Assembly: GCA_902596585.1 (NCBI GenBank)
Contig: CACJUL010000003.1
Location: 1-64,000 of the forward strand
Source of the DNA: an uncultured Prochlorococcus sp.
GTDB lineage: Bacteria; Cyanobacteriota; Cyanobacteriia; PCC-6307; Cyanobiaceae
Reading direction: 5' to 3'
Length of the DNA stretch: 64,000 nucleotides
Shown here: positions 720 to 13,417 of the stretch, piece by piece
How the letters are laid out: the number at the start of each line of letters is the position of its first letter
Numbering within the stretch: the stretch's first letter is position 1
Notes under the pieces: model-generated
Databases searched by the model: none
Seen by the model: only the letters and a program-made list of their open reading frames with translations
Told to the model about the DNA's origin: nothing
Program-made: the position numbers and the translations under genes

Positions 720-912
720 CACTAGGTCGTTGAGGGGAGCGCTAGGGGGAGCGCTAGGGGGAGCGCTAAGATCTAATATAAGCTTAGATAACCTTCGAAG
801 ATTACGCCATAGCTAGTCTCAAACTCGTTCCACTAACTATAATTAGTTAAGACTATAACTAGATTCTCAAGGTTTTCTTAAAAATAACGCCCAGTGCTTT
901 GGGAGCACTAGG
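720..912 (+). repeat. Junction unit 1, conserved segment upstream of the tRNA-Pro fragment, bounded by CACTAGGTCG direct repeats (720-729 and 906-915)
   Basis: Shared words with the 2292-2474, 6076-6245 and 6942-7125 copies: GGGGGAGC-type repeats, CTTCGAAGAT, GTCTCAAACTCGTTCCA, TCTCAAGGTTTTCTTAAAAATAA. Confidence 0.75.
734..769 (+). repeat. Three tandem 12-bp units GGGGAGCGCTAG
   Basis: Direct reading of the sequence. Confidence 0.9.
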
Positions 913-940
913 TCGCAGGTTCGAATCCTGTCGCCCCGAC
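887..940 (+). repeat. tRNA-Pro(UGG) 3' half, copy 1 (reference copy)
   Basis: acgcccAGTGCTTTGGGAGCACTaggtcGCAGGttcgaatCCTGTcgccccgac: anticodon stem-loop with TGG, T arm, acceptor 3' strand; no tRNA 5' half upstream. Confidence 0.9.
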
Positions 941-959
941 TTAATCAAAACCAAGTCAT

Positions 960-990
960 AGGCAGCCATCCCAAGGTTGCCTTTTTTATT
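960..990 (+). terminator. Rho-independent terminator behind tRNA-Pro fragment 1
   Basis: GGCAGCC-atcccaa-GGTTGCC followed by TTTTTT. Confidence 0.75.
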
Positions 991-1011
991 TCTCATTTGT
1001 CTTAAAAACTC

Positions 1012-1044
1012 AAATAGCGATTAAATAGCGATTAAATAGCGATT
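1012..1044 (+). repeat. Three tandem 11-bp units AAATAGCGATT
   Basis: Direct reading of the sequence. Confidence 0.9.
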
Positions 1045-1091
1045 ATTTGTATAGCTTTGATATACCTAGTAGGCTTAATCGCTTATTATCG

Positions 1092-1355
1092 CTACCATTT
1101 TGGCTCAGTAACTTGCCACCCCGCAGTAATTAATTGTTGATACTCTTTGCGAGCTTCATCTATTTTAATTTCTTTTCTAGTTTTCATAAGCGGTGGCGAT
1201 TCTCCGTTAGAACCAACAACAATTCCACTATCAACGAACATATATTCAAAAAACTTATCCTTATTTTTTTTATTCTTTGTAAAACGTCTTACCTCAGTCC
1301 AGTTTGGACATATTAACCATGCCTCTGCAGTAACTTTCCTGGAGTCTTTATCCAT
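1092..1355 (-). CDS. DUF1651-like small protein
   Basis: WLICPNW...F...EARKEYQQLITAGWQVTEPKW pattern. Confidence 0.6.
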   Translation of the reverse strand: MDKDSRKVTAEAWLICPNWTEVRRFTKNKKNKDKFFEYMFVDSGIVVGSNGESPPLMKTRKEIKIDEARKEYQQLITAGWQVTEPKW

Positions 1356-1365
1356 TTATTTCCCT

Positions 1366-1761
1366 TTATTTCTTGCTCCATTCACATTGATAGGCGTATT
1401 TCTTATATATTTTCCCATATCCTTTTTCAAGGATAAGTTCTTGAATATTAACTCCGTTTTTAAATAATTCACCAACAGTTCTTCCATATTTATCTTTAGT
1501 GATTCTTTTAATAGAAACTTTCTCATTAGACACTAATTTATTCACAAAATCTCTCGCCTCTCTAGCTGGAATAGGATCCGCCTGCGAACCTTTTAACTCT
1601 GGAGTATCTATACAAGCCAATCTTATCTTTTCTCCCTTTGAAGTAGTACAAGTATCTCCGTCATAGCAGTCTTTTATAAAAACAATTGGAAATGATGCAA
1701 ATACTGGTTCAGAAGTAGGTAAAGCGAGAGCAGCTAATAAAGGAATAAAAAATCTCTTCAA
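1366..1761 (-). CDS. Secreted staphylococcal-nuclease-like (SNase/thermonuclease) protein
   Basis: DCYDGDTCTTSKGEKIRLACIDTPE...YGRTVGELFKNGVNIQELILEKGYG is the SNase signature. TTG at 1761 gives MKRFFIPLLAALALPTSEPVFA, a signal peptide; the ORF track starts at 1782 (GTG). Confidence 0.85.
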   Translation of the reverse strand: MKRFFIPLLAALALPTSEPVFASFPIVFIKDCYDGDTCTTSKGEKIRLACIDTPELKGSQADPIPAREARDFVNKLVSNEKVSIKRITKDKYGRTVGELFKNGVNIQELILEKGYGKIYKKYAYQCEWSKK

Positions 1762-1784
1762 AAAAAAGGAGCTAATTGCCACTT

Positions 1785-1803
1785 ATTGTAGATCTACTAT
1801 CAA
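1785..1803 (-). promoter_or_regulatory. Promoter-like motif, TTGATAGTAGATCTACAAT on the minus strand
   Basis: Shared motif with -10-like TACAAT; copies at 442-460(-), 2235-2247(-), 6886-6903(-), 7226-7244(+), 7465-7483(+). Confidence 0.6.
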
Positions 1804-1824
1804 ATTCTCGCCAATATTTACTTG

Positions 1825-2214
1825 CTAATCCCATAATGACAAATCTGAATCTCCTGATGATCTATGCATCCAATGGATTTTCCAAATTCCATCAATCTTT
1901 TTGAAGATGGAGGTAACAGTTGGCAAATCATCATTAGGAGTTCCTTTGTAAGAGAATTTTGCCCCAAGTGTAAAAACACACATTGCCACATCAGCAGAAA
2001 GAAATTCAAACCTATGAATTTTTGTAATTTCTGCTTTTTCCTGAACCACATCACCCGAACTCATCATTTCCTCGAATCCCTTTGCACTTATTGGATTCCC
2101 ACTAGGTCTAATGAATAGAAAATCTGAAGTGGCGTTATTTACAAAAAATGAGCCCATTTTCTCAGGTGTTGCTAGCTCATACAACATTGATTCAATTGTT
2201 TCTCTATCTGTCAT
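1825..2214 (-). CDS. NTF2/SnoaL-like small protein
   Basis: LSADVAMCVFTLGAKFSYKGTPNDDLPTVTSIFKKIDGIWKIHWMHRSSG is typical of the NTF2-like fold. Confidence 0.55.
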   Translation of the reverse strand: MTDRETIESMLYELATPEKMGSFFVNNATSDFLFIRPSGNPISAKGFEEMMSSGDVVQEKAEITKIHRFEFLSADVAMCVFTLGAKFSYKGTPNDDLPTVTSIFKKIDGIWKIHWMHRSSGDSDLSLWD

Positions 2215-2234
2215 AAAAAAGTTTATTTGCCCTT

Positions 2235-2247
2235 ATTGTAGATTTAA
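2235..2247 (-). promoter_or_regulatory. Promoter-like motif (AAATCTACAAT) upstream of the 1825-2214 gene
   Basis: TACAAT -10-like box, then AAGGGCAAATAAACTTTTTT directly before ATG. Confidence 0.5.
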
Positions 2248-2291
2248 TTTTTTAAAAAAGCTTTTTTATTTACTAGCCTTGCAACCTTAAA

Positions 2292-2474
2292 CACCAGGTC
2301 AAAGAAGGGGCTTTAGAGGGGGCTCTAAGTTCTATAAACATCTTGTATGATCTTCGAAGATTTAGCAATAAGCTGTCTCAAACTCGTTCCACCATCTATA
2401 ATTAGTCTAGGCTATAACTAAAGTCTCAAGGTTTTCTTAAAAATAACGCCCAGTGCTTTGGGAGAACTAGGTCG
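2292..2474 (+). repeat. Junction unit 2, conserved upstream segment
   Basis: CACCAGGTCA...CTTCGAAGAT...GTCTCAAACTCGTTCCA...TCTCAAGGTTTTCTTAAAAATAACGCC...AACTAGGTCG. Confidence 0.75.
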
Positions 2475-2499
2475 CAGGTTCGAATCCTGTCGCTCCGAC
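2446..2499 (+). repeat. tRNA-Pro(UGG) 3' half, copy 2
   Basis: Near identical to copy 1 (about 2 differences). Confidence 0.9.
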
Positions 2500-2930
2500 T
2501 CTTAAAAACCAAGTTATACTTGTGAGTCTCCCATGCTCGCTTTTTTATTGTTTGATGTTTCATACCCCAAAGGGTAGCTGAAAGGGTAGCTAGAATCTTC
2601 GAAGATACCCAATAGATGCTTATTTACTTCCTGCAAATAGAGAAAGAATTTAAATATCAACAACTCTATAAGGATTACCCTCAAGTGCCTCTATTGATTT
2701 AAATAATTCTCTCATTTTTGCTTTATTCTCTCTATTCAATAACACCAGTTAGAAGAATAGAAAAGAATGCTTAGATCACAGATAGAATAATTTGGCCTAG
2801 AGTCTTACTGTGATATTTTTTTAATTTATTGGCAGACGTCTTAGAAACTTCTCCTCGTAATTCCTGTATATGATCTGAGAATAAAGTTAAATAATTTATT
2901 TAGCAGTTGTTATCATTAATTTTTTTTTAC

Positions 2931-2964
2931 AACTTACTCAGTTTTTTTTTTAAAGAAGTAAGTT
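2931..2964. promoter_or_regulatory. Inverted repeat upstream of the SPFH operon
   Basis: AACTTACT (2931-2938) / AGTAAGTT (2957-2964), T-rich loop, about 20 nt before the start codon. Confidence 0.45.
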
Positions 2965-2984
2965 AAGGTAAATTCATTAAGCTA

Positions 2985-3980
2985 GTGACAGAAATATTAA
3001 GATGTGACGTTGATCCAAAAGAATTCATTGTATGGAAACACCCTATAAATAAACCCGCTTATGGATCTCAAATATTAGTACAAGAATCTCAAGTTGGATT
3101 GCTTTTATCATCAGGTGAACTTGTAGGTACGCTTGAACCGGGATCTTATCCAATAGAATCTCCAAATATCCCCTTATTGAGAAGATTAATACCTGGTGGT
3201 GAGAACTCAATTCCCTACGACATTTGGTTTTCAACTTGTATAAATTCAACTGAATATACATGGGGGACTAGAGATCCTATTCAAGTATTTGATAATACAT
3301 ACAATGTTCTGGTGCCTATTGGCTGTTATGGTAGCTCTAGAATAAAAATAACAGACTTTCAAAGTTTTTTTCATCAAGTTGCTGGCACCTCTCGTTCATA
3401 CAAAACAAAAGATTTAAGAGACTTTATTCTTCCTTTTATTGAAAGAGAAATTGACCAATCGATATCAGAGGCAGCCCAAAATAATAACGTCTTTAATCTC
3501 AGCTCTTCTACAAAACGACTCTCAAACGAATGTGGAATTCGTTTGAAATCTTCCTTAAAAAAATTTGGTATTGAATTTGGCGAACTATTCATACAAGGTA
3601 TTTCAGTAATAAGTGACGACCCAACCTTTATTGAAATCAAGAAAGCATTAAGTACAGCTTCATCAATAAATATTAAAGGAGGGGCTATTTCAAATAATAA
3701 AGAAACTTATAGTCTTGAAAGGAGTTTTGATGTTCTTGAAAATGCCTCAAAAAATGATTCTGGCGTTGCTGGGTCATTCATCGGAGCAGGGGTTGGGCTG
3801 GGAGCAGGTTTAAATCTTGCCAATAATATGAGTCCTTTAGATAATCAAAATGCCAGCTCAGAAAATATAGGGAAATCGGTTGAAGAAAGATTAAAAAGTT
3901 TAAAATCTCTTCATGATCAAGGATTAATAAGTGATGATGAATACAATCAAAAACGTTCAAGCATTTTAAGTGAACTTTAA
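2985..3980 (+). CDS. SPFH-domain protein with C-terminal SHOCT motif (YdjI/virion-core-like)
   Basis: FIVWKHP...GSQILVQESQVGLLLSSGELVGTLEPGSYPI N-terminal SPFH pattern; C-terminal VEERLKSLKSLHDQGLISDDEYNQKRSSILSEL is SHOCT-like; GTG start. Confidence 0.75.
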   Translation: MTEILRCDVDPKEFIVWKHPINKPAYGSQILVQESQVGLLLSSGELVGTLEPGSYPIESPNIPLLRRLIPGGENSIPYDIWFSTCINSTEYTWGTRDPIQVFDNTYNVLVPIGCYGSSRIKITDFQSFFHQVAGTSRSYKTKDLRDFILPFIEREIDQSISEAAQNNNVFNLSSSTKRLSNECGIRLKSSLKKFGIEFGELFIQGISVISDDPTFIEIKKALSTASSINIKGGAISNNKETYSLERSFDVLENASKNDSGVAGSFIGAGVGLGAGLNLANNMSPLDNQNASSENIGKSVEERLKSLKSLHDQGLISDDEYNQKRSSILSEL

Positions 3981-3982
3981 AT

Positions 3983-4636
3983 ATGCGATATAATAGCCCC
4001 ATATTTTATTCCCTCCTTTTACTAGCATTTTGTTATGTATTGCTAGGAAAAATTGATATTTCCTTTATATTTTTTTCAATAGCCTTAATAGAAAACAGTC
4101 TAAGTCTAAGATTCTACCCAGTATCTAGAAGAGTTTCAGACCAGAATGATTTTAGATTTAGTTATGCAGAAGTCGCATCTAAAATTTATTATCCAATCTC
4201 ATTAATAATTAGTTATTTGATTTATGTTGTAGTAGCAAATTTTTATAATAACAGCGATGTAAAATTAATTTTTTTATTAGTTATCTTAGGGCTTTTCATT
4301 ATTTTTAGAATTACAGCAAATGAATTTTTAGATTATTTAGAGAAAAAGAATTTAGTTAAAAATAAAAACTTAACTAAGATTAAAGAAGCTAAAGATATCA
4401 TTACAAATAATAAGAATGATATTTTACACCAAATCAAACTAATTAAAAATTTTGATTTAGGAACTGAAGAGAAAATATTAATTAATGATATTTACGACCA
4501 AATAAAATACACCTCCAGAGAAATAGAAGACTCAATCCTAGATGATATGAAAGAGTTAAACCAAATAATTAGCTCAAATACAGAAGAAAATTCAATGATT
4601 GTGAGAATATTAAAAAAAATAAGTAACAAACTGTAA
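3983..4636 (+). CDS. Membrane protein of unknown function, SPFH operon
   Basis: Hydrophobic N-terminal half, charged coiled C-terminus; 2 bp after the SPFH gene. Confidence 0.6.
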   Translation: MRYNSPIFYSLLLLAFCYVLLGKIDISFIFFSIALIENSLSLRFYPVSRRVSDQNDFRFSYAEVASKIYYPISLIISYLIYVVVANFYNNSDVKLIFLLVILGLFIIFRITANEFLDYLEKKNLVKNKNLTKIKEAKDIITNNKNDILHQIKLIKNFDLGTEEKILINDIYDQIKYTSREIEDSILDDMKELNQIISSNTEENSMIVRILKKISNKL

Positions 4637-4706
4637 AATCATTATTTTTTTTCAAACGAGTTAAGCTTTGAAATTTATAAGATAAACGGAATTTATTTAA
4701 TTAACA

Positions 4707-5366
4707 ATGGCAAAAAAAAGCGATATAGCAAAATATTTTTCTAGAGAATTTTGGACTAAAACTGCTGCATGGTTAATTATTCCTGGCATAATATGTTTTC
4801 CTCTTGAAGCCGCAGGCCTAGGAGTTATTTTACTTGTTGGTGGAGGTTGGGTTGTGAATTCAAAATTACTTGGAGGCTTAACCGATAAAGATATAGAAGA
4901 TGAATACAAACATTTCGCTGAAAAAAATTTTGAAACTGCTCAAAAAGCATGCGGAATAGATGAACGAATGCTTGTACAAACTCAAGATTGGTTTTGGTTT
5001 ATCCCAAATGTGGAGATGGAAGGTAATGAGCCAAAATACAGAAAGGGAGATGATGGAATGGTTAGATCAAATACAAGAGGTATATGCATACTTAATTACG
5101 GAAAAGACCAAATCTTCTCTTGGGAACAATTAACTAATATTGAGACAGGACTTGTATCATATGTAGATACATCAGAATATTATTATAAAGACGTAATTGG
5201 CATGGAAATAGATCAAGGTACTACGCTTACTTTAAGAACTGCAGGAGGTCCAAAAAGCTATATGATTGCTGGAGGTAAAGATAATAAAGAATCAGGTGAC
5301 TCTGAAAGAGCGAGAACAGTTATTTCAGCTGTTAGACAAATGTTAAGAGAGAAGAAAAAGAGTTAA
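4707..5366 (+). CDS. Membrane-anchored protein of unknown function, SPFH operon
   Basis: Hydrophobic segment WLIIPGIICFPLEAAGLGVILLVGGGW, then a soluble domain possibly PH-like (IGMEIDQGTTLTLRTAGGPKSYMIAG). Confidence 0.6.
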   Translation: MAKKSDIAKYFSREFWTKTAAWLIIPGIICFPLEAAGLGVILLVGGGWVVNSKLLGGLTDKDIEDEYKHFAEKNFETAQKACGIDERMLVQTQDWFWFIPNVEMEGNEPKYRKGDDGMVRSNTRGICILNYGKDQIFSWEQLTNIETGLVSYVDTSEYYYKDVIGMEIDQGTTLTLRTAGGPKSYMIAGGKDNKESGDSERARTVISAVRQMLREKKKS

Positions 5367-5398
5367 TAAATAAAAAAAAATTTAATTCCAATTAAGAT

Positions 5399-5788
5399 AT
5401 GCCAACCTGTATATACTGCACTGCTCCATACAATACTGAAGAAACTATTTGTAAATATTGTGATGCACCCATCTTTAAAAATAAAAATATTAACGAGAGT
5501 CTCCTAAATAATTTAAGTACAATAGGTTTATCAGATGATGGGAAAGATATTCTTAAAACGATAGGTAATTATTCAAGGTCTATAAGGAAATTAAGATTCA
5601 GTCATTCTAATCTAAATGATTTAATAGATCTTGATGATGACATTGAATCTCTTGATAATAATGAATTAATCAAAAATAGATTTTCCGATTTATTAGCTCA
5701 CGTATCTGATCAATACATCTTAAAGAATTCAATTATTTTATTTGGAGAAACAAAACAACTATTCAGAAAATATAGAATTGAAAATTAG
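5399..5788 (+). CDS. Zinc-ribbon small protein, SPFH operon
   Basis: CIYCTAPYNTEETICKYCDAPI double CxxC. Confidence 0.65.
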   Translation: MPTCIYCTAPYNTEETICKYCDAPIFKNKNINESLLNNLSTIGLSDDGKDILKTIGNYSRSIRKLRFSHSNLNDLIDLDDDIESLDNNELIKNRFSDLLAHVSDQYILKNSIILFGETKQLFRKYRIEN

Positions 5789-6075
5789 TTTCTCGCTCTG
5801 GCTTTTCTAAAGTGCACATAATAAAAGCCAAAAATTCCAAGTAATTTTGAGCAGGTAATTCCCCTAAAATCATTAAATAGAGTGCAAATTTTTTGATATT
5901 TTATAAAATCAAGGCATATGGGATTGGATGCAGATTCATTTAAAAAATGAATTGGATTGCAGATCCCTCAAATTTACTCAAAAAGACTTGTACTCACTAC
6001 CATAATTACACTTTTCCATTAATAGGATTTTAATATTTTCCTAGCAAGATATTTTTTTTCAAGGCAGCTTGAAGG

Positions 6076-6270
6076 AATTAGGTAAAGAGAGTTCTTAGGT
6101 CTATTTACATCCTGTATGATCTTCTAAGATTATGCATTATAAGTTGTCTCAAACTCTTTCCAATATCAATTATTTGTTAAGACTAGGATAAGATTCTCAA
6201 GCAATTCTTAAAAATAAAGCCCATTGCTTTGGGGGCACTAGGTCGCAGGTTGAAATCCTGTCGCCATTAC
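6076..6270 (+). repeat. Junction unit 3 with tRNA-Pro(UGG) 3' half copy 3 (6217-6270)
   Basis: AATTAGGTAAAG...TCTTCTAAGATTATGC...GTTGTCTCAAACTCTTTCCA...CTTTGGGGGCACTAGGTCGCAGGTTGAAATCCTGTCGCC. Confidence 0.75.
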
Positions 6271-6466
6271 TCTATAGTCCAACTCATAAAAGCCTTTTTA
6301 AGCCTGTTTTTTTTGAATAGATTCCGTCTCCAGAGAGAGTGGACAAAAAATGAATTTATAAAAAATCTGGGATGTATTTATTTAAGGAAAGTACTCAATA
6401 AATAGAAAGATTAAAAAATCACAATTATGATTTATATTATTAGATGTTTAAGACTATTAAATTTTT

Positions 6467-6775
6467 ATGGTTAATGCTTCTTTAAATTGGGCTTCAATTG
6501 TAGGGATCATTTTGGCTTTAGCAGGTTTGTTTATTTTCTCCAATTTCTCTTCAAAACAATATAGTTGGGCTCCACTTATTGGAGCTATAAGTCTCCTATG
6601 TGGTGGGATACTATTTTTTCAAGGATGGAGATTAGATCCAATACTTCAGTTCTCGCAATTTCTACTTGCAGGTTCCAATGTCTTTCTAATCTACATCCTT
6701 TTCAATAAGGGGAAAGGATCAAATCACGATAGTTTAAAAAGAGTGAAAACACCTGCTCAGAAAATAATAAAGTAA
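6467..6775 (+). CDS. Small membrane protein
   Basis: 102 aa ORF with several hydrophobic segments. Confidence 0.5.
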   Translation: MVNASLNWASIVGIILALAGLFIFSNFSSKQYSWAPLIGAISLLCGGILFFQGWRLDPILQFSQFLLAGSNVFLIYILFNKGKGSNHDSLKRVKTPAQKIIK

Positions 6776-6885
6776 TTCTTTATATATTTCGTGAATATTA
6801 ATTCAGATTTTTACCAAAGGATAAATTAAAATTTTTAATAAACTTTTTAAAAGAAATTCACAAAAAAAGGAGATATTTGCGCCTT

Positions 6886-6903
6886 AATTTAGATCGACTT
6901 TCC
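6886..6903 (-). promoter_or_regulatory. Orphan copy of the promoter-like motif
   Basis: Reverse strand GGAAAGTCGATCTAAATT then AAGGCGCAAATATCTCCTTTTTTTGTG; ORF stops after a few codons. Confidence 0.45.
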
Positions 6904-6941
6904 AAATAAACCTTCAGATTACAAACCTAGTTAATACAGAA

Positions 6942-7146
6942 CACTAGATCATACAGGGGGTTAGCTGCAGGGGTAGCTAGAGTCTATAAACACCTTATAT
7001 AAACTTCGAAGATATACTCATATTTAGTCTAAGGCTTCTTACGTAATATGTAGACAATAAAGCCTATGACAAGGATTTAAAGAAATCTCATTTAATAGAT
7101 CGAGTCCTTTGGGAACACTAGGTGATGATCGAATACCGCCTCCAAC
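6942..7146 (+). repeat. Junction unit 4 with decayed tRNA-Pro 3' half copy 4 (7101-7146)
   Basis: CACTAGATCATACAGGGGG...CTATAAACACC...CTTCGAAGATAT...CCTTTGGGAACACTAGGTGATGATCGAAT. Confidence 0.6.
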
Positions 7147-7225
7147 TTATAGAGGTAAAAGAGGTGGAAGATATACTGAAGATAAGACTAAAGATGGCAG
7201 ACCTTTTAGGAGGTATTTTTAATAA

Positions 7226-7244
7226 TTGACAGTCGATCTAAACT
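7226..7244 (+). promoter_or_regulatory. Orphan copy of the promoter-like motif
   Basis: TTGACAGTCGATCTAAACT followed by AAAGAGCAATTAGCTACTTTTTTT, matching the leader of the SNase-like gene; no ORF follows closely. Confidence 0.5.
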
Positions 7245-7337
7245 AAAGAGCAATTAGCTACTTTTTTTAGATAAAGTACCTATATTTTATAAATTATTTA
7301 AAGGTTATTCTTTTGTGCAAATAACACTATTTTAAAA

Positions 7338-7460
7338 ATGATTAAACTTGCAATCGTTTTCTTACCAGTAGTCTTTGCACTTATATGGGTTCTTTTCATT
7401 GGGTTAAGAATAAATAAAGTAGAAACTAGAGATGGAAAAAGAAAATTAATTAATTACTAA
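7338..7460 (+). CDS. 40-aa single-span membrane peptide, possibly PsbY-like
   Basis: MIKLAIVFLPVVFALIWVLFIGLRINKVETRDGKRKLINY. Confidence 0.4.
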   Translation: MIKLAIVFLPVVFALIWVLFIGLRINKVETRDGKRKLINY

Positions 7461-7464
7461 TTGA

Positions 7465-7483
7465 TTGAGAGTCGATCTAACAT
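7465..7483 (+). promoter_or_regulatory. Promoter-like motif upstream of the DUF1330 gene
   Basis: TTGAGAGTCGATCTAACAT, same motif as 1785-1803(-). Confidence 0.55.
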
Positions 7484-7506
7484 AGAGGGATAAAACCCTC
7501 TTTTTT
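7484..7506 (+). terminator. Hairpin plus T-tract ending 1 nt before the DUF1330 start codon
   Basis: AGAGGG-ataaaa-CCCTCT-TTTTT, then aATG at 7508. Confidence 0.7.
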
Positions 7507-7507
7507 A

Positions 7508-7855
7508 ATGCGTAAATTATTAATACCTTTATTAGCCGCTTTTACTTTACCCACTGTTGTTAATGCTTCAGGCTTTTGGCTGTTAACTACCATAGTTAAA
7601 AAACCAGCAGCTTTTAAAGAATATGTTCAAGAATTTAAACCTTGGCTAAAGTCAGTAGGAGGATCTTTAGTTATGAAAGATTCTGATCCTCAAATTGTTG
7701 AAGGTAGAGGTGGAAAACTATCAGTCGTTATTTCATTCCCCTCAAAGCAAGCTGCGATAGATGCTTACAATAGTCCTGAATATCAAGAGCTAACTAAGAA
7801 ACGTTGGGCAAGCACAAAGAAAACAAACCTAATAATAATGGGATTAAATAAATAA
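7508..7855 (+). CDS. Secreted DUF1330-like protein
   Basis: Signal peptide MRKLLIPLLAAFTLPTVVNA, then DUF1330-like AFKEYVQEFKPWLKSVGGSLVMKDSDPQIVEG...VVISFPSKQAAIDAYNSPEYQEL. Confidence 0.75.
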   Translation: MRKLLIPLLAAFTLPTVVNASGFWLLTTIVKKPAAFKEYVQEFKPWLKSVGGSLVMKDSDPQIVEGRGGKLSVVISFPSKQAAIDAYNSPEYQELTKKRWASTKKTNLIIMGLNK

Positions 7856-7984
7856 AACGCTTACCACTTAAGACCGCATTAAATTCTCAATAAGAAAGAA
7901 TATCTAGGTTATTTTCTGGCGGCTAAAGGGAGTGATTTCAAGCCCTAAATTCTCACCAGCTATGACTTTTATCCTGTAAGCCGA

Positions 7985-8021
7985 CTTTTAAAACCTTATA
8001 GAGCACTAGGACAACTTTAGG
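7985..8021 (+). repeat. Truncated tRNA-Pro fragment, related to copy 7
   Basis: cttttaaaaccttatagAGCACTAGGaca, compare 10211-10240. Confidence 0.45.
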
Positions 8022-8061
8022 GAAAAATCCATTAAGCATTAGAAAGTCTTATAAGGTTTTA
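7989..8061. repeat. 12-bp perfect inverted repeat TAAAACCTTATA / TATAAGGTTTTA
   Basis: Arms at 7989-8000 and 8050-8061. Confidence 0.8.
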
Positions 8062-8120
8062 GAAGAAAAAGGGCTTATAACTGAAGTTATAGCCTATAAT
8101 TGTAGTTATAGCTCTTTCTG

Positions 8121-8172
8121 ACCTAGTGATTTGGGAGCACTAGGTCTAAGGTTCAAATCCTGTCGCCCCGAT
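8121..8172 (+). repeat. tRNA-Pro(UGG) 3' half, copy 5
   Basis: ctagtgaTTTGGGAGCACTAGGTCtaAGGTTCaAATCCTGTCGCCCCGA. Confidence 0.85.
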
Positions 8173-8204
8173 CAGTTATAGCAGTAAGTCTTAGCTAATA
8201 AGAA

Positions 8205-9035
8205 ATGCCACCCAAAGAAGCTTGCAACCTAAATGTTCCCGTGATGGATAAAAAAAATAAAATTTCAAAGCACATAGGTATCCTTTGTGCAATGCCTGAA
8301 GAAATTGGTTCTACTCTTGAAAATTTAGAAAATATTGAAACAAAAGCATATGGTGACTTAAAAATTCATTCCGGAGATTGGTGTTTTGCTAATTCCTCTT
8401 CCAAATCTTTTAAGATACAACTATCAATTGCTTGGAGTGGCTGGGGTAAGGTAAGTGCAGCAAGAGCAGCGACCAGATTAATTAGTCATCAATTTAACAA
8501 AGTTAAAGTTGATGCAATCTTTTTTACTGGTGTAGCAGGAGCAGTTAATTCAAAGCTAAAACAATGGGATATTATTATTCCTTATGAATTAATACAGCAT
8601 GATATGGATGCACGTCCACTTTTCAAAAAATATGAGATACCTGCCCTAAAGACTGTAAGAATAAAAAGCAATAAATCAATTAATGATTGGACGTTAAGTA
8701 CTTTAAAAAACTCAAAAAAAGATGGCTTATTGAAAAATTTTGGAAATATTTATGAAGGTCTAATTGCTACAGGAGATAAATTCATTAGTAATAAGAATGA
8801 CATTGAAAAAATATCAAAAGGAATGGAGGATCTATCTGCTGTAGAAATGGAAGGAGCCTCAGTTGCACAGGTAGCTAAACAGGAAAGAATTCCATTTCAG
8901 ATAATTAGAGTGATTTCCGATGAAGCCAATGAGAACTCATCTGGAGACTTTAGTAAATTCCTCATAAAATACAACCATCACTCCGCGAAATTAATTTCTG
9001 CTCTAATAGAAAATATAGACAGTTTGCCAAATTAG
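8205..9035 (+). CDS. MTA/SAH nucleosidase-like (PNP/UDP phosphorylase fold) protein
   Basis: HIGILCAMPEEIGSTLENLENIE...FFTGVAGAV...AVEMEGASVAQVAKQERIPFQIIRVISD; start may be ATG at 8244. Confidence 0.8.
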   Translation: MPPKEACNLNVPVMDKKNKISKHIGILCAMPEEIGSTLENLENIETKAYGDLKIHSGDWCFANSSSKSFKIQLSIAWSGWGKVSAARAATRLISHQFNKVKVDAIFFTGVAGAVNSKLKQWDIIIPYELIQHDMDARPLFKKYEIPALKTVRIKSNKSINDWTLSTLKNSKKDGLLKNFGNIYEGLIATGDKFISNKNDIEKISKGMEDLSAVEMEGASVAQVAKQERIPFQIIRVISDEANENSSGDFSKFLIKYNHHSAKLISALIENIDSLPN

Positions 9036-9080
9036 AAAAAAAAATTATTCCTATTTAATTTACAGTAAATGTAAGAAAAG

Positions 9081-9131
9081 CTGGGCGTTTTGGGAGCGCT
9101 AGGTCGCAGGTTGGAATTCCTAGGCCCCGAC
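9081..9131 (+). repeat. tRNA-Pro 3' half, copy 6
   Basis: gggcgtTTTGGGAGCGCTAGGTCGCAGGTTgGAATtCCTaGgCCCCGAC; anticodon stem still pairable. Confidence 0.8.
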
Positions 9132-9329
9132 TGTCTTTTCAGCGATTACCTAATTTGAATTACGGAAAAATTAGGGGGAATGACCTCCTTTTTAGGGGCT
9201 TTCTTATGGCTTTTCCCTAGATTGTATATAATTTTCTTGAATTTTTTAGGATATAAGTCTATCTTATATAGATAAATAGAGATGGTTGCTATCCTTATTG
9301 CCAGATAGCTATTTAAATATTGATATTTA

Positions 9330-9647
9330 ATGTTGCGACTTCTTCCGTTACCGATTTTTATTTGCATTTATCTATTCTCTTGGTGGAGATGTAAAAAAAA
9401 TATTATCGCTAGTGATAAGCAACTAAAACCATGCATTGATTGGGCATACATAAAAAATTTACCTCTCCCACCAAAACCTTCATTTGTCGAGTTTTATATT
9501 GTTTTTGTTTCTTCTTTTTTTAAATTTCCCCTTGGGATAATTATTCAACAACTACCTTTCGCAAAAAAAGTAAGATATTACGAAAGAGAAATGAAATTAA
9601 TATTTGATAAATGGAATTTAGAAAAAATAAAAAAAATAATTAACTAA
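9330..9647 (+). CDS. Hypothetical protein
   Basis: 105 aa ORF. Confidence 0.4.
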   Translation: MLRLLPLPIFICIYLFSWWRCKKNIIASDKQLKPCIDWAYIKNLPLPPKPSFVEFYIVFVSSFFKFPLGIIIQQLPFAKKVRYYEREMKLIFDKWNLEKIKKIIN

Positions 9648-9671
9648 ATTATCGATAAAAAGAAAAATCAT

Positions 9672-9728
9672 ATGGAAGAACTAGACAAAGACCTAGATGA
9701 GGATTTTGATATTGATTGGGAAGTTTAA
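9672..9728 (+). pseudogene. C-terminal remnant related to the 14469-14654 protein
   Basis: MEELDKDLDEDFDIDWEV* compared with ...QKGLDDDYDIDWEV*. Confidence 0.5.
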
Positions 9729-9736
9729 AACAAGAA

Positions 9737-9770
9737 ACCCTTTCAGAAATTCCAACTACTGAAAGGGTTA
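9737..9770. terminator. Inverted repeat ACCCTTTCAG / CTGAAAGGGT
   Basis: Perfect 10-bp stem downstream of the 9672-9728 ORF. Confidence 0.6.
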
Positions 9771-9869
9771 TTAAATCGACTCGCAACTATATAGAATCAA
9801 TTTATATCTTGCAGCAAATTTAGATTTTGCTGACGAGGTTTGGCCTCAATTAATTTATAGCAATAATTT

Positions 9870-10085
9870 TTATACTCCCGCTATTTTTTGTTTCTCTAGT
9901 CGTTTTTTTAGAATTGAATAATTTTGAGAAGCCCATTTTCGAGAAATATCTAATTCAGCATCCAAATTGTCCTTAAGTAATTTGCTAATTTTAAATACTT
10001 CTACGAAGCCTAGATAAATTATTACAAGCACCTTAATTATGTTTACTGTAACAGCTACTAACTTTTCAATTCTTTGATCTTGCAT
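9870..10085 (-). CDS. Small membrane protein
   Basis: 71 aa ORF with one hydrophobic segment. Confidence 0.4.
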   Translation of the reverse strand: MQDQRIEKLVAVTVNIIKVLVIIYLGFVEVFKISKLLKDNLDAELDISRKWASQNYSILKKRLEKQKIAGV

Positions 10086-10220
10086 TTGAACTTATTGAAG
10101 CCCACTAAAATTAACAGTTTTAAGAAATTATGCAAATGTTTTTTCAAATTAAAAATAACTTCTAAAAATTCTGGTTTACTTACTTGCTACGACCCAATCA
10201 TATAGACCAACTTTTAAAAC

Positions 10221-10263
10221 CTTATGGAGCACTAAGTCGAAGGTTCGAATCTTATCGCCCAGA
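10221..10263 (+). repeat. tRNA-Pro 3' half, copy 7
   Basis: cttatGGAGCACTAaGTCGaAGGTTCGAATCtTaTCGCCCaGA. Confidence 0.75.
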
Positions 10264-10393
10264 TTGACTTTTAGTATTCTCAATATTGCTTTTAGCGATA
10301 AAATAAAAATTATTTGTATAGCTTTGTATTGGAAGGACAGTTAATTGAATATTTAATTATAAATTTAAGTACAAAGATTTCCCCAAGACAAAT

Positions 10394-11044
10394 ATGATTT
10401 TCTATAAATTATCAAAAATATTTTCAAAGGTAATATTATTTCCCTTCATTTTCTTGGACAGACTGAAATGGATATCAGAATGGTATTTTTTCAAAAAATG
10501 TTCTCCTCCTGCTCCTCATTTCATTAAACAATCTCTTTTATTGCGTCATGGGATTAAAAATTCTGTTTGGGTTGAAACTGGAACTTATTTAGGTCAAACA
10601 ACAAAATTTTTGAGTGAAAATTTTAGTTTTGTTCATTCAATTGAGCCCTCAAAGAAATGTCTAAAAATAGCAAAAAGGAATTTAAAATTTTCAAAAAATA
10701 TAGCTCTTTATAATGGAACATCCGAACTATGTTTTGAAGAAATATGCTCTTCTCTAAATGGAGATATTTGCTTTTGGTTAGACGGACATTATTCTGAGGG
10801 TATAACTTTCAAAGGAGTTACCGATACTCCAATCTTATTTGAACTAGATACTATTAAAAAATATTTAGATAATTTCTCAAAAACTGTTATCTTGATCGAT
10901 GATATTAGAACTTCTCATATAGATAAAAAGAATTATCCTCCTCTAAATTTTTATGTAAATTGGGCAAATTCTGTGAACATGGATTGGATAATAGAGCTCG
11001 ACTTATTTATAATCAAATCAAAAGGGCTCCCCTTCTACAGATAA
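10394..11044 (+). CDS. Class I SAM-dependent methyltransferase-like protein
   Basis: VWVETGTYLGQTTKFLSENFSFVHSIEPSKKCLKIAKRNL and FWLDGHYSEG. Confidence 0.6.
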   Translation: MIFYKLSKIFSKVILFPFIFLDRLKWISEWYFFKKCSPPAPHFIKQSLLLRHGIKNSVWVETGTYLGQTTKFLSENFSFVHSIEPSKKCLKIAKRNLKFSKNIALYNGTSELCFEEICSSLNGDICFWLDGHYSEGITFKGVTDTPILFELDTIKKYLDNFSKTVILIDDIRTSHIDKKNYPPLNFYVNWANSVNMDWIIELDLFIIKSKGLPFYR

Positions 11045-11246
11045 TAAATTTACTAGTTTTCATTGTTTACTTTTTGTTCAATATTTAGAGCTGATAACTT
11101 TAGAAATTAATTAACAATTATTTGTATCGCAAAGTGTGATTTTGTATATTTGAACTATTTATAAAGCCAAATAATTCTATAAGTAGACCAACTAATAAGT
11201 CTTAGCTTCACTTGTTTATTTAATCTAATATCTCAAATTATAAAAA

Positions 11247-11295
11247 GGGTATTTTGGGAGCACTAGATAGCAGGTTCGAATACTATAGCAACTAC
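11247..11295 (+). repeat. tRNA-Pro 3' half, copy 8
   Basis: gtatTTTGGGAGCACTAGaTaGCAGGTTCGAATaCTaTaGCaac. Confidence 0.75.
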
Positions 11296-11380
11296 TCTTA
11301 AAAACTAATTAATACTAGTTAGCCATCAAACTCACTTTTTTATTTCTTACTTTCTTAAAAGAAAATATATGAAATCTTAT

Positions 11381-11779
11381 TTAAAAACCAAAATCTACTA
11401 ATGCCTTTTCAAACTTATTACTTGCTCTTTTACTTGAAAAAATAATTTTTCCAGTGGAAACTTTTGAATTTTCATCTTTATAAACGATATTAAAAATGTA
11501 ATAACTTGAAGAAAAAATAAAACCTTTATTAACCTCTCTGTAAATTTCTAATACTTGGTTTTTATTTATAAACCTACCATTACCAACTTGAATAGTTTTG
11601 ATATCTTCAGGGTAAGTTCTAAGGGTAATAACAGAATCGTTATATTTATCTTCCCACCAAATATCAAAGGAAACTTTTTCTATTAAATTTTTATCTTCTA
11701 CAATTTCTTGAGAGATTAAAGGCTCAAGAAAAAATAGATTTGATGAGACAATTAGTGCTAATATTAAAAATTTTTTCAT
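11381..11779 (-). CDS. Secreted hypothetical protein
   Basis: N-terminal signal peptide MKKFLILALIVSSNLFFLEPLISQE. Confidence 0.5.
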   Translation of the reverse strand: MKKFLILALIVSSNLFFLEPLISQEIVEDKNLIEKVSFDIWWEDKYNDSVITLRTYPEDIKTIQVGNGRFINKNQVLEIYREVNKGFIFSSSYYIFNIVYKDENSKVSTGKIIFSSKRASNKFEKALVDFGF

Positions 11780-11793
11780 TTAATAGTTTTCTC

Positions 11794-13239
11794 CTAATCT
11801 AAAAAATTATCAATATTTATTCCACTTGTACCTGTTTTTTCTAGACCTATAAGTTTGGGATCTTTTTCAATATCAGATATAACGAGGCTGTCTGATTCTT
11901 TATCATAGCTCCAATCTCTCATAGTATTTTTTAATCTGTTTTTCTTTCCGGTTTCTCTAAATTTATTAAACAACTCTATATTTTGTATATGCTCACCTAT
12001 AGCTTTAGCCCTCCTTTCATCGCTTGGATGAGTACTTAGTATTTCTAAAGTCTGTTCACTGATTCGCTCTCTATCTTTAGCTTTTCTTTTTTTTGCAATT
12101 AATCTACATTTTGTCTGTAATCTTTTATTCTTATTTACTTTAATTTTATTTTTACATTCTTTATCATCTAATAATTCAGGTTTTTGCTTATTTATGAATA
12201 TTTCAGGTTTCTTTTTACCTGGATCTGCTACTCCCTGAGGCAACAATCTTGCAATGATTTTATCTGTATCATGGGGCATAGTTTCTGTCCATAATTTAAG
12301 GCAAGCTTTTTCACTAAATCCCGCTGTCGCAGCATATTGAGTCCCTAGCAGATCTGCTTCGTATTCAAGACCTCTTCCAAAAGCGGTAAGCGACAATGCC
12401 GAATCTCTAAGATAATTATCAATATAACTAAATCCTTGCTTCATATATTCTGGACTTAATCCTTGCATTTGATTAATTGATTCAGCGATAACTGGTGAGT
12501 ATTCCATTGCCTTTTCAGTTATCTGTGGGGCCAACATTTGAGATGCAAGATTATTAAATGCAATTTGATTTGATAATTGATTGAGAGAAGTATTAGTACC
12601 TGAGTAACTATCAGAAATCCCACCTATCATAGCTGCCATAAAATAAGCACCCGCTTGAGCATTTTTCAGTTTAACTATTCTTTCTGAGATTCTTGTTGCA
12701 GCTATTGAATCATATTTCATCCTTGCTTTTCTTTTTTCATCATTATGATTTTGAGTAATGTGAGCCAACTCATGGGAAATTACGCATGCTAATTGTTGAG
12801 GTCTTCCCATCAATTCTTTCAGTAATGCTTTATTAACTAATAAAACTCCACTATCGCTACTAGCAAAAGCATTAGCTTGGCCTGCCATAGTGTTAATAAC
12901 TTGAGACGCCCAAATATCAAAATTTGTTGTTTTATCTATATCTGGTAACAACTGCGCTGCCTGACATTTACTACTAGATGGATCTAATCCGAGCGCACCT
13001 GAACAATCAACACCTTTCCTTACCGCAATTCTTATTGGTCTTTTAATATTATTTGCTTCCACAATCCTATCAGTAATCCTATAAGTCAGATAAAGATCAG
13101 GATTCATTATTTTCTTCGCTCTTTTGTAAGCAGTCGATTTGGCATTCCCAATATTTCCAGTTATGAGTAGAACACTGGGTACAGAAATCGCCGCTGCCAG
13201 TATTCCTACAAATAATATAAACTTCTTAGTTATCTTCAA
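11794..13239 (-). CDS. M48-family metallopeptidase
   Basis: CVISHELAHITQNHND (HExxH), GLEYEADLLGTQYAATAGF, STHPSDERR. Confidence 0.85.
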   Translation of the reverse strand: MKITKKFILFVGILAAAISVPSVLLITGNIGNAKSTAYKRAKKIMNPDLYLTYRITDRIVEANNIKRPIRIAVRKGVDCSGALGLDPSSSKCQAAQLLPDIDKTTNFDIWASQVINTMAGQANAFASSDSGVLLVNKALLKELMGRPQQLACVISHELAHITQNHNDEKRKARMKYDSIAATRISERIVKLKNAQAGAYFMAAMIGGISDSYSGTNTSLNQLSNQIAFNNLASQMLAPQITEKAMEYSPVIAESINQMQGLSPEYMKQGFSYIDNYLRDSALSLTAFGRGLEYEADLLGTQYAATAGFSEKACLKLWTETMPHDTDKIIARLLPQGVADPGKKKPEIFINKQKPELLDDKECKNKIKVNKNKRLQTKCRLIAKKRKAKDRERISEQTLEILSTHPSDERRAKAIGEHIQNIELFNKFRETGKKNRLKNTMRDWSYDKESDSLVISDIEKDPKLIGLEKTGTSGINIDNFLD

Positions 13240-13376
13240 TTTAAAAAAATATTTTTACAAATTTAACTGATATTTATTTTATTTGAGAAGTTTAATTTGA
13301 TTAGAAAATAAATTGAAATCTTAGATAAAAATATTTTTGTAAGATTAAATCAATAAATTTATTCGACCTAATTAAT

Positions 13377-13417
13377 TCTTAGCACTAGGTCCCAAGTTCG
13401 AATCTTGTAGCCCCGAC
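13377..13417 (+). repeat. tRNA-Pro 3' half, copy 9
   Basis: ttaGCACTAGGTCcCAaGTTCGAATCtTGTaGCCCCGAC. Confidence 0.75.

Follow-up and report, generated by a model that had tools for sequence, protein, structure and literature searches.

The window, the whole 64,000-nucleotide stretch analysed here (positions 1-64000 of its contig, in a 72% complete genome of the ocean cyanobacterium Prochlorococcus), contains in a hypervariable region four genes that form one conserved module: an SPFH-SHOCT protein, a membrane protein, a membrane-anchored protein and a zinc-ribbon protein, encoded in the same order and on the same strand in two further genomes. The sequence-only reading had described these genes as an operon, and the comparison supports it. 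Our leading reading, to which we give slightly less than an even chance, is that the four proteins build a scaffold under the membrane which is of the YdjI-like SPFH type and independent of PspA; its probable job is the maintenance of the membrane or of membrane complexes. This proposal builds on directly observed gene content, conserved order, hydropathy topology, absence of PspA and recurrence of the components across phyla.

The four ORFs are intact, all on the + strand and tightly packed, with gaps of 2, 70 and 32 nt (genes 1-2, 2-3 and 3-4), and the closely spaced co-directional genes proposed at 2985, 3983, 4707 and 5399 are borne out at those coordinates. Gene 1 (2985-3980, + strand; GTG start, 331 aa) joins an SPFH/Band_7_1 domain (Pfam PF13421, E 3e-24) through a Gly-rich linker to a C-terminal SHOCT (PF09851, E 1e-7), and is a soluble protein with zero TM segments by hydropathy. 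The PF13421 family is also matched in B. subtilis. A solved-structure search by sequence returned nothing credible for gene 1, and the plasmid matches of the SPFH protein (Butyrivibrio, Paracoccus) had uninformative neighbours. Gene 2 (3983-4636, + strand; 217 aa) is a membrane protein with about 3 TM segments by hydropathy in its N-terminal half and a helical C-terminal half; neither it nor gene 3 matches any Pfam family.

Gene 3 (4707-5366, + strand; 219 aa) starts with one N-terminal TM segment followed by a mainly beta domain, for which Pfam, NCBIfam, PHROGs and PADLOC hold no family. It carries the motifs EY(F/Y)YxD and RE(K/R)K, and its residues invariant across six sequences include E157, Y158, Y160, D162, R214, E215 and K217. 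A model predicts 8 strands and a C-terminal helix but is unusable at pLDDT 41; the PH-like bPH reference is a seven-strand barrel capped by a C-terminal helix, and sequence searches with gene 3 gave no match to such a domain. We infer that gene 3 may adopt a PH-like fold. Gene 4 (5399-5788, + strand; 129 aa) opens with a CxxC-N10-CxxC zinc ribbon, whose four Cys are invariant in three homologues, and continues into a helical domain; a weak model (pLDDT 57) shows the ribbon and 4 helices. Solved-structure searches by sequence with genes 3 and 4 yielded nothing credible. Genes 2 and 4 were also considered as relatives of each other, an idea rejected on comparison.

The two further copies of the block, identical in order and strand and beyond chance expectation, lie in AG-402-K21 (L025/L036; G204), of the same genus as the window genome, and in G258, a complete genome of another picocyanobacterial genus; the co-occurrence elsewhere on which the earlier reading had staked its claim was thus found. 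By BLAST against the window proteins, the AG-402-K21 and G258 homologues are, respectively, 52% and 59% identical for gene 1, 31% and 35% for gene 2, 47% and 43% for gene 3 (about 50% in alignment), and 35% and 34% for gene 4. Because order is kept at only 31-59% protein identity, selection holds the block together. Its distribution is sparse: within the genus, gene 3 turned up in 2 genomes out of 249, within the family in 3 out of 400, and contig scans of genomes matched AG-402-K21 only. Set against the operon identities, SecA is 93% identical to that of the window genome in AG-402-K21 and 77% in G258, and the history of the operon thus departs from that of the species. An SPFH tree groups the proteins of the window, AG-402-K21 and G258 in one clade (100/98), within which AG-402-K21 is nearer to G258 than to the window (94/88).

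Like B. subtilis pspA-ydjGHI, the operon combines a soluble band-7/SPFH protein that has no TM segment with integral membrane partner(s) and a zinc ribbon (PMC8581546, PMC11237479), and the soluble band-7 protein YdjI requires two membrane proteins for its membrane localisation (PMC8581546). The likeness to YdjGHI drawn earlier therefore stands for the PF13421 SPFH domain, the zinc ribbon and the integral membrane partner, but fails for the PspA, TPM and YpeB-like parts: in Pfam, genes 2 and 3 carry neither the TPM domain of YdjH nor the YpeB-like domain of YdjG, gene 1 ends in SHOCT and not in the zinc ribbon of YdjI (which its G725 relative, described below, does carry), gene 3 is an extra family, and both the operon and the genome lack PspA. 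The PSP-linked contexts in the available parts of Ravi et al. 2024 likewise combine Band-7 with SHOCT, a zinc ribbon and membrane partners, and the ones described there go along with PspA, CesT/Tir or polyamine genes; the Band-7-SHOCT proteins in those parts have 2 TM fused, unlike gene 1, and gene 3 is in none of the contexts given there (PMC11237479). The SPFH-membrane-zinc-ribbon theme itself is already known, and the literature search returned neither a published operon that combines these four components nor a homologue of the operon to which a role has been assigned, in keeping with the earlier view of it as a candidate undescribed system. Flotillin/NfeD and HflK/C-FtsH are alike in their SPFH domain and membrane-linked assembly. 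In flotillin/stomatin and HflK/C, the SPFH protein has a membrane anchor of its own, whereas gene 1 has no N-terminal anchor and the operon includes neither an NfeD nor an FtsH gene.

PspA/Vipp1 (PF04012) was matched in 0 of 14 genomes of g1 and g11, which are Prochlorococcus-type (several complete, the window's own 72% complete), as against 90 of 91 other family members, nearly all with a best E below 1e-47. The ESCRT-III-like PspA/Vipp1 has apparently been lost in Prochlorococcus-type lineages; papers naming both Vipp1 and Prochlorococcus do not state this loss in the parts available, and it may still be reported elsewhere. The earlier remark that no PspA is seen thus holds both near the operon and across all 14 genomes. 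Since PspA/Vipp1 is absent from the tested g1/g11 genomes, the operon cannot act through PspA recruitment as YdjI does, and the PspA-type mechanism to which it had been likened finds no support.

In the scaffold that we propose, the soluble SPFH protein encoded by gene 1 would oligomerise, with gene 2 as a putative multi-pass anchor whose cytoplasmic helical arm would tether gene 1 to the membrane, and gene 3 as a single-pass anchor whose cytoplasmic beta domain would tether it as well. Gene 4, a candidate cytoplasmic zinc-ribbon adaptor, and the SHOCT tail of gene 1 would join the assembly in a presumed physical complex. Lining the membrane from the inside, the scaffold would stabilise or give order to membrane or membrane-protein complexes under stress. 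This function would carry over by analogy from SPFH relatives that are known to work with PspA, a partner that these cells lack. YdjI-type SPFH proteins have so far been studied as PspA partners; if the scaffold reading is true, an SPFH module can act alone, and its own function becomes testable without PspA.

A gene 3 profile, used without regard to neighbouring genes, picks up a relative in G725, which belongs to another class of the same phylum (E 2e-4; hhalign 96%, E 4e-9) and where the gene run is zinc ribbon-TPR, gene-3-like, SPFH-double zinc ribbon (PF13421, 6e-34) and 3-TM protein. The G725 gene-3-like protein matches in turn a protein of the gut bacterium Bacteroides finegoldii (36% over 150 aa, E 5e-13), in a run of gene-3-like, YidD, SPFH-GYF, multi-TM protein and zinc ribbon-TPR. 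The SPFH tail varies (SHOCT, zinc ribbon, GYF) while the partner set stays, and the gene 3 family, which has no entry in the libraries searched, stands beside SPFH in Prochlorococcus, G725 and Bacteroides. Gene 2 matches the distant membrane partners weakly by profile (E 0.007, probability 5%), their likeness resting on position and topology. A broader claim would be that of a cross-phylum four-component SPFH machine, with an exchangeable SHOCT, zinc-ribbon or GYF tail, a multi-pass anchor, a new single-pass mostly-beta family and a zinc-ribbon adaptor, which is undescribed in the literature searched and which, in Prochlorococcus cells lacking PspA/Vipp1, partly takes over membrane protection; with few loci behind its cross-phylum part, we hold this claim to be doubtful.

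SPFH matches occur in 13 of 249 genomes of the genus, two of them short and weak. At the nine full-length SPFH loci of this sample that lack gene 3, the next gene always encodes a gene-2-type membrane protein (9/9), most of these proteins have a common C-terminal YSS..R-like motif, and most of the loci have a zinc-ribbon gene either directly beside the SPFH-membrane pair or no more than about 3 kb away. At least 4 loci of other picocyanobacterial genera have SPFH, membrane protein and zinc ribbon in an uninterrupted run; often a TPR gene precedes such a run and a zinc metallopeptidase gene lies close to it. A membrane partner comes after SPFH in every picocyanobacterial locus read. Across locus types, BLAST supports gene 2 homology for the nearest only (E 8e-4); place, topology and motif suggest that the remaining gene-2-type proteins are probably homologous too.

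The metallopeptidases in these loci point to another reading, in which the SPFH assembly would hold or gate a membrane metalloprotease, making the operon an accessory of membrane-protein quality control, for which HflK/C, holding or gating FtsH, is a precedent. SPFH pairs of other picocyanobacteria adjoin zinc metallopeptidases, including a zinc-ribbon-M48 fusion in G104 (L034 1518-3212), and the island that carries the operon contains an M48 metallopeptidase gene (11794-13239, - strand, TTG start) whose product is 76% identical to the protease part of that fusion. This gene, however, lies 6 kb off on the opposite strand, and the ORFs around the AG-402-K21 and G258 operons include none recognised as a metallopeptidase, so that we would bet against a protease scaffold.

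Less probable still is a conflict or anti-phage system, in which a membrane scaffold would sense infection and trigger an effector, as island location and patchy distribution could suggest; the G725 set also adjoins a tyrosine recombinase-like gene. Two weaker gene-3-like relatives, in G629 and G887, lie beside CHAT (PF12770) and caspase-type (PF00656) protease genes, neighbours that possibly tie the gene-3 domain family to conflict systems but are a lead and no evidence. The gene-3-like domains recorded beside a caspase-type and a CHAT protease gene lie at L098 3839-6769 and L099 4427-6817, one of them fused to FHA and TM. The four genes of the operon, however, have no effector domain and no defence genes recognised adjacent to them, the Bacteroides set sits among pgeF, obgE and adenylate kinase, and no PADLOC-DB match falls below E 0.06. 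PHROGs gave no functional match for the operon proteins, and no relatives were found in viral contigs (queries SPFH and gene 3) or in phages (queries SPFH and a gene-3 relative). The role in phage infection that had been entertained from the sequence is not borne out by these searches, and we regard it as unlikely.

The operon is cargo of a tRNA-Pro island. Eight tRNA-Pro(TGG) 3' fragments on the + strand fall within 13 kb (893-13417), beginning at 893, 2452, 6225, 8125, 9089, 10226, 11253 and 13381, and the fragment pattern gives 4 matches in the window against 0 expected. The cargo is bordered on the left by the scar at 2452-2499 (+ strand), with 96% identity over 48 nt to the intact tRNA-Pro of AG-402-K21, and on the right by a degenerate scar at 6225-6265 (+ strand), with 93% identity over 41 nt; a further scar of the same island lies at 893-940 (+ strand). 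Copies 2 and 3 are therefore confirmed as the borders they had been taken for, as 3' fragments of 41-48 nt and not as whole tRNA copies, and the four operon genes are the sole recognisable coding sequence between them. About 150 nt upstream of the 2452-2499 scar is repeated at 748-941 and 6078-6271, this upstream sequence being common to copies 1 to 3 and about 80% alike. ARAGORN reports no tRNA gene anywhere in the window, and an intact tRNA-Pro was not found in the stretches read of the window's incomplete genome. AG-402-K21 has an intact tRNA-Pro and five fragments, with its operon copy within the same island; the G258 operon lies near tRNA-Asn, with no tRNA-Pro scars around it. We infer that the fragment array, whose form fits such a process, arose by sequential integration at the tRNA 3' end.

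Prochlorococcus tycheposons and tRNA-linked islands likewise carry cargo between tRNA 3' fragments; unlike tycheposons, the element here holds no tyrosine recombinase and its scars are degenerate. The mobile system proposed earlier is upheld in its tRNA-Pro island location but not in present mobility, since no tyrosine recombinase scores over the cut-off in the 72% complete genome; one sub-cut-off PF00589 match lies on another contig, and the four-gene segment contains no recombinase. The mobility of the operon is historical. That the four are unrelated accessory genes, together only through a common island ride, could be read from their rarity, island location and fast divergence, but it is very improbable and largely refuted: three genomes, of which G258 has no flanking tRNA-Pro scars, preserve the order and strand at a protein identity of 31-59%, and the component set recurs in other phyla. 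An SNase-type nuclease gene lies at 1366-1782 (- strand), and look-alikes adjoin the SPFH loci of G101 and G079 (L029, L030) and of G299 (L074); the SNase-type gene may be recurrent cargo.

The inverted repeat AACTTACT/AGTAAGTT, noted earlier just before the first start codon, is present at 2931. Its significance is not supported: it is at chance level, perfect 8-bp inverted repeats with a spacer of 3-30 numbering 170 in the window (2.7 per kb), and it is not kept upstream of the two homologous operons, so it was rejected as a regulator. A scan for sigma-70-like promoters gave fewer matches than in shuffles. A dispersed repeat of 35-50 nt occurs in both orientations at 436-469, 1753-1804, 2203-2246, 6854-6905, 7217-7283 and 7461-7506, several copies carrying the core AGATCGAC/GTCGATCT and some lying directly upstream of the SNase and DUF1330 genes. 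These two genes have a similar signal-peptide start, within an inverted repeat at 1714-1771 / 7498-7555.
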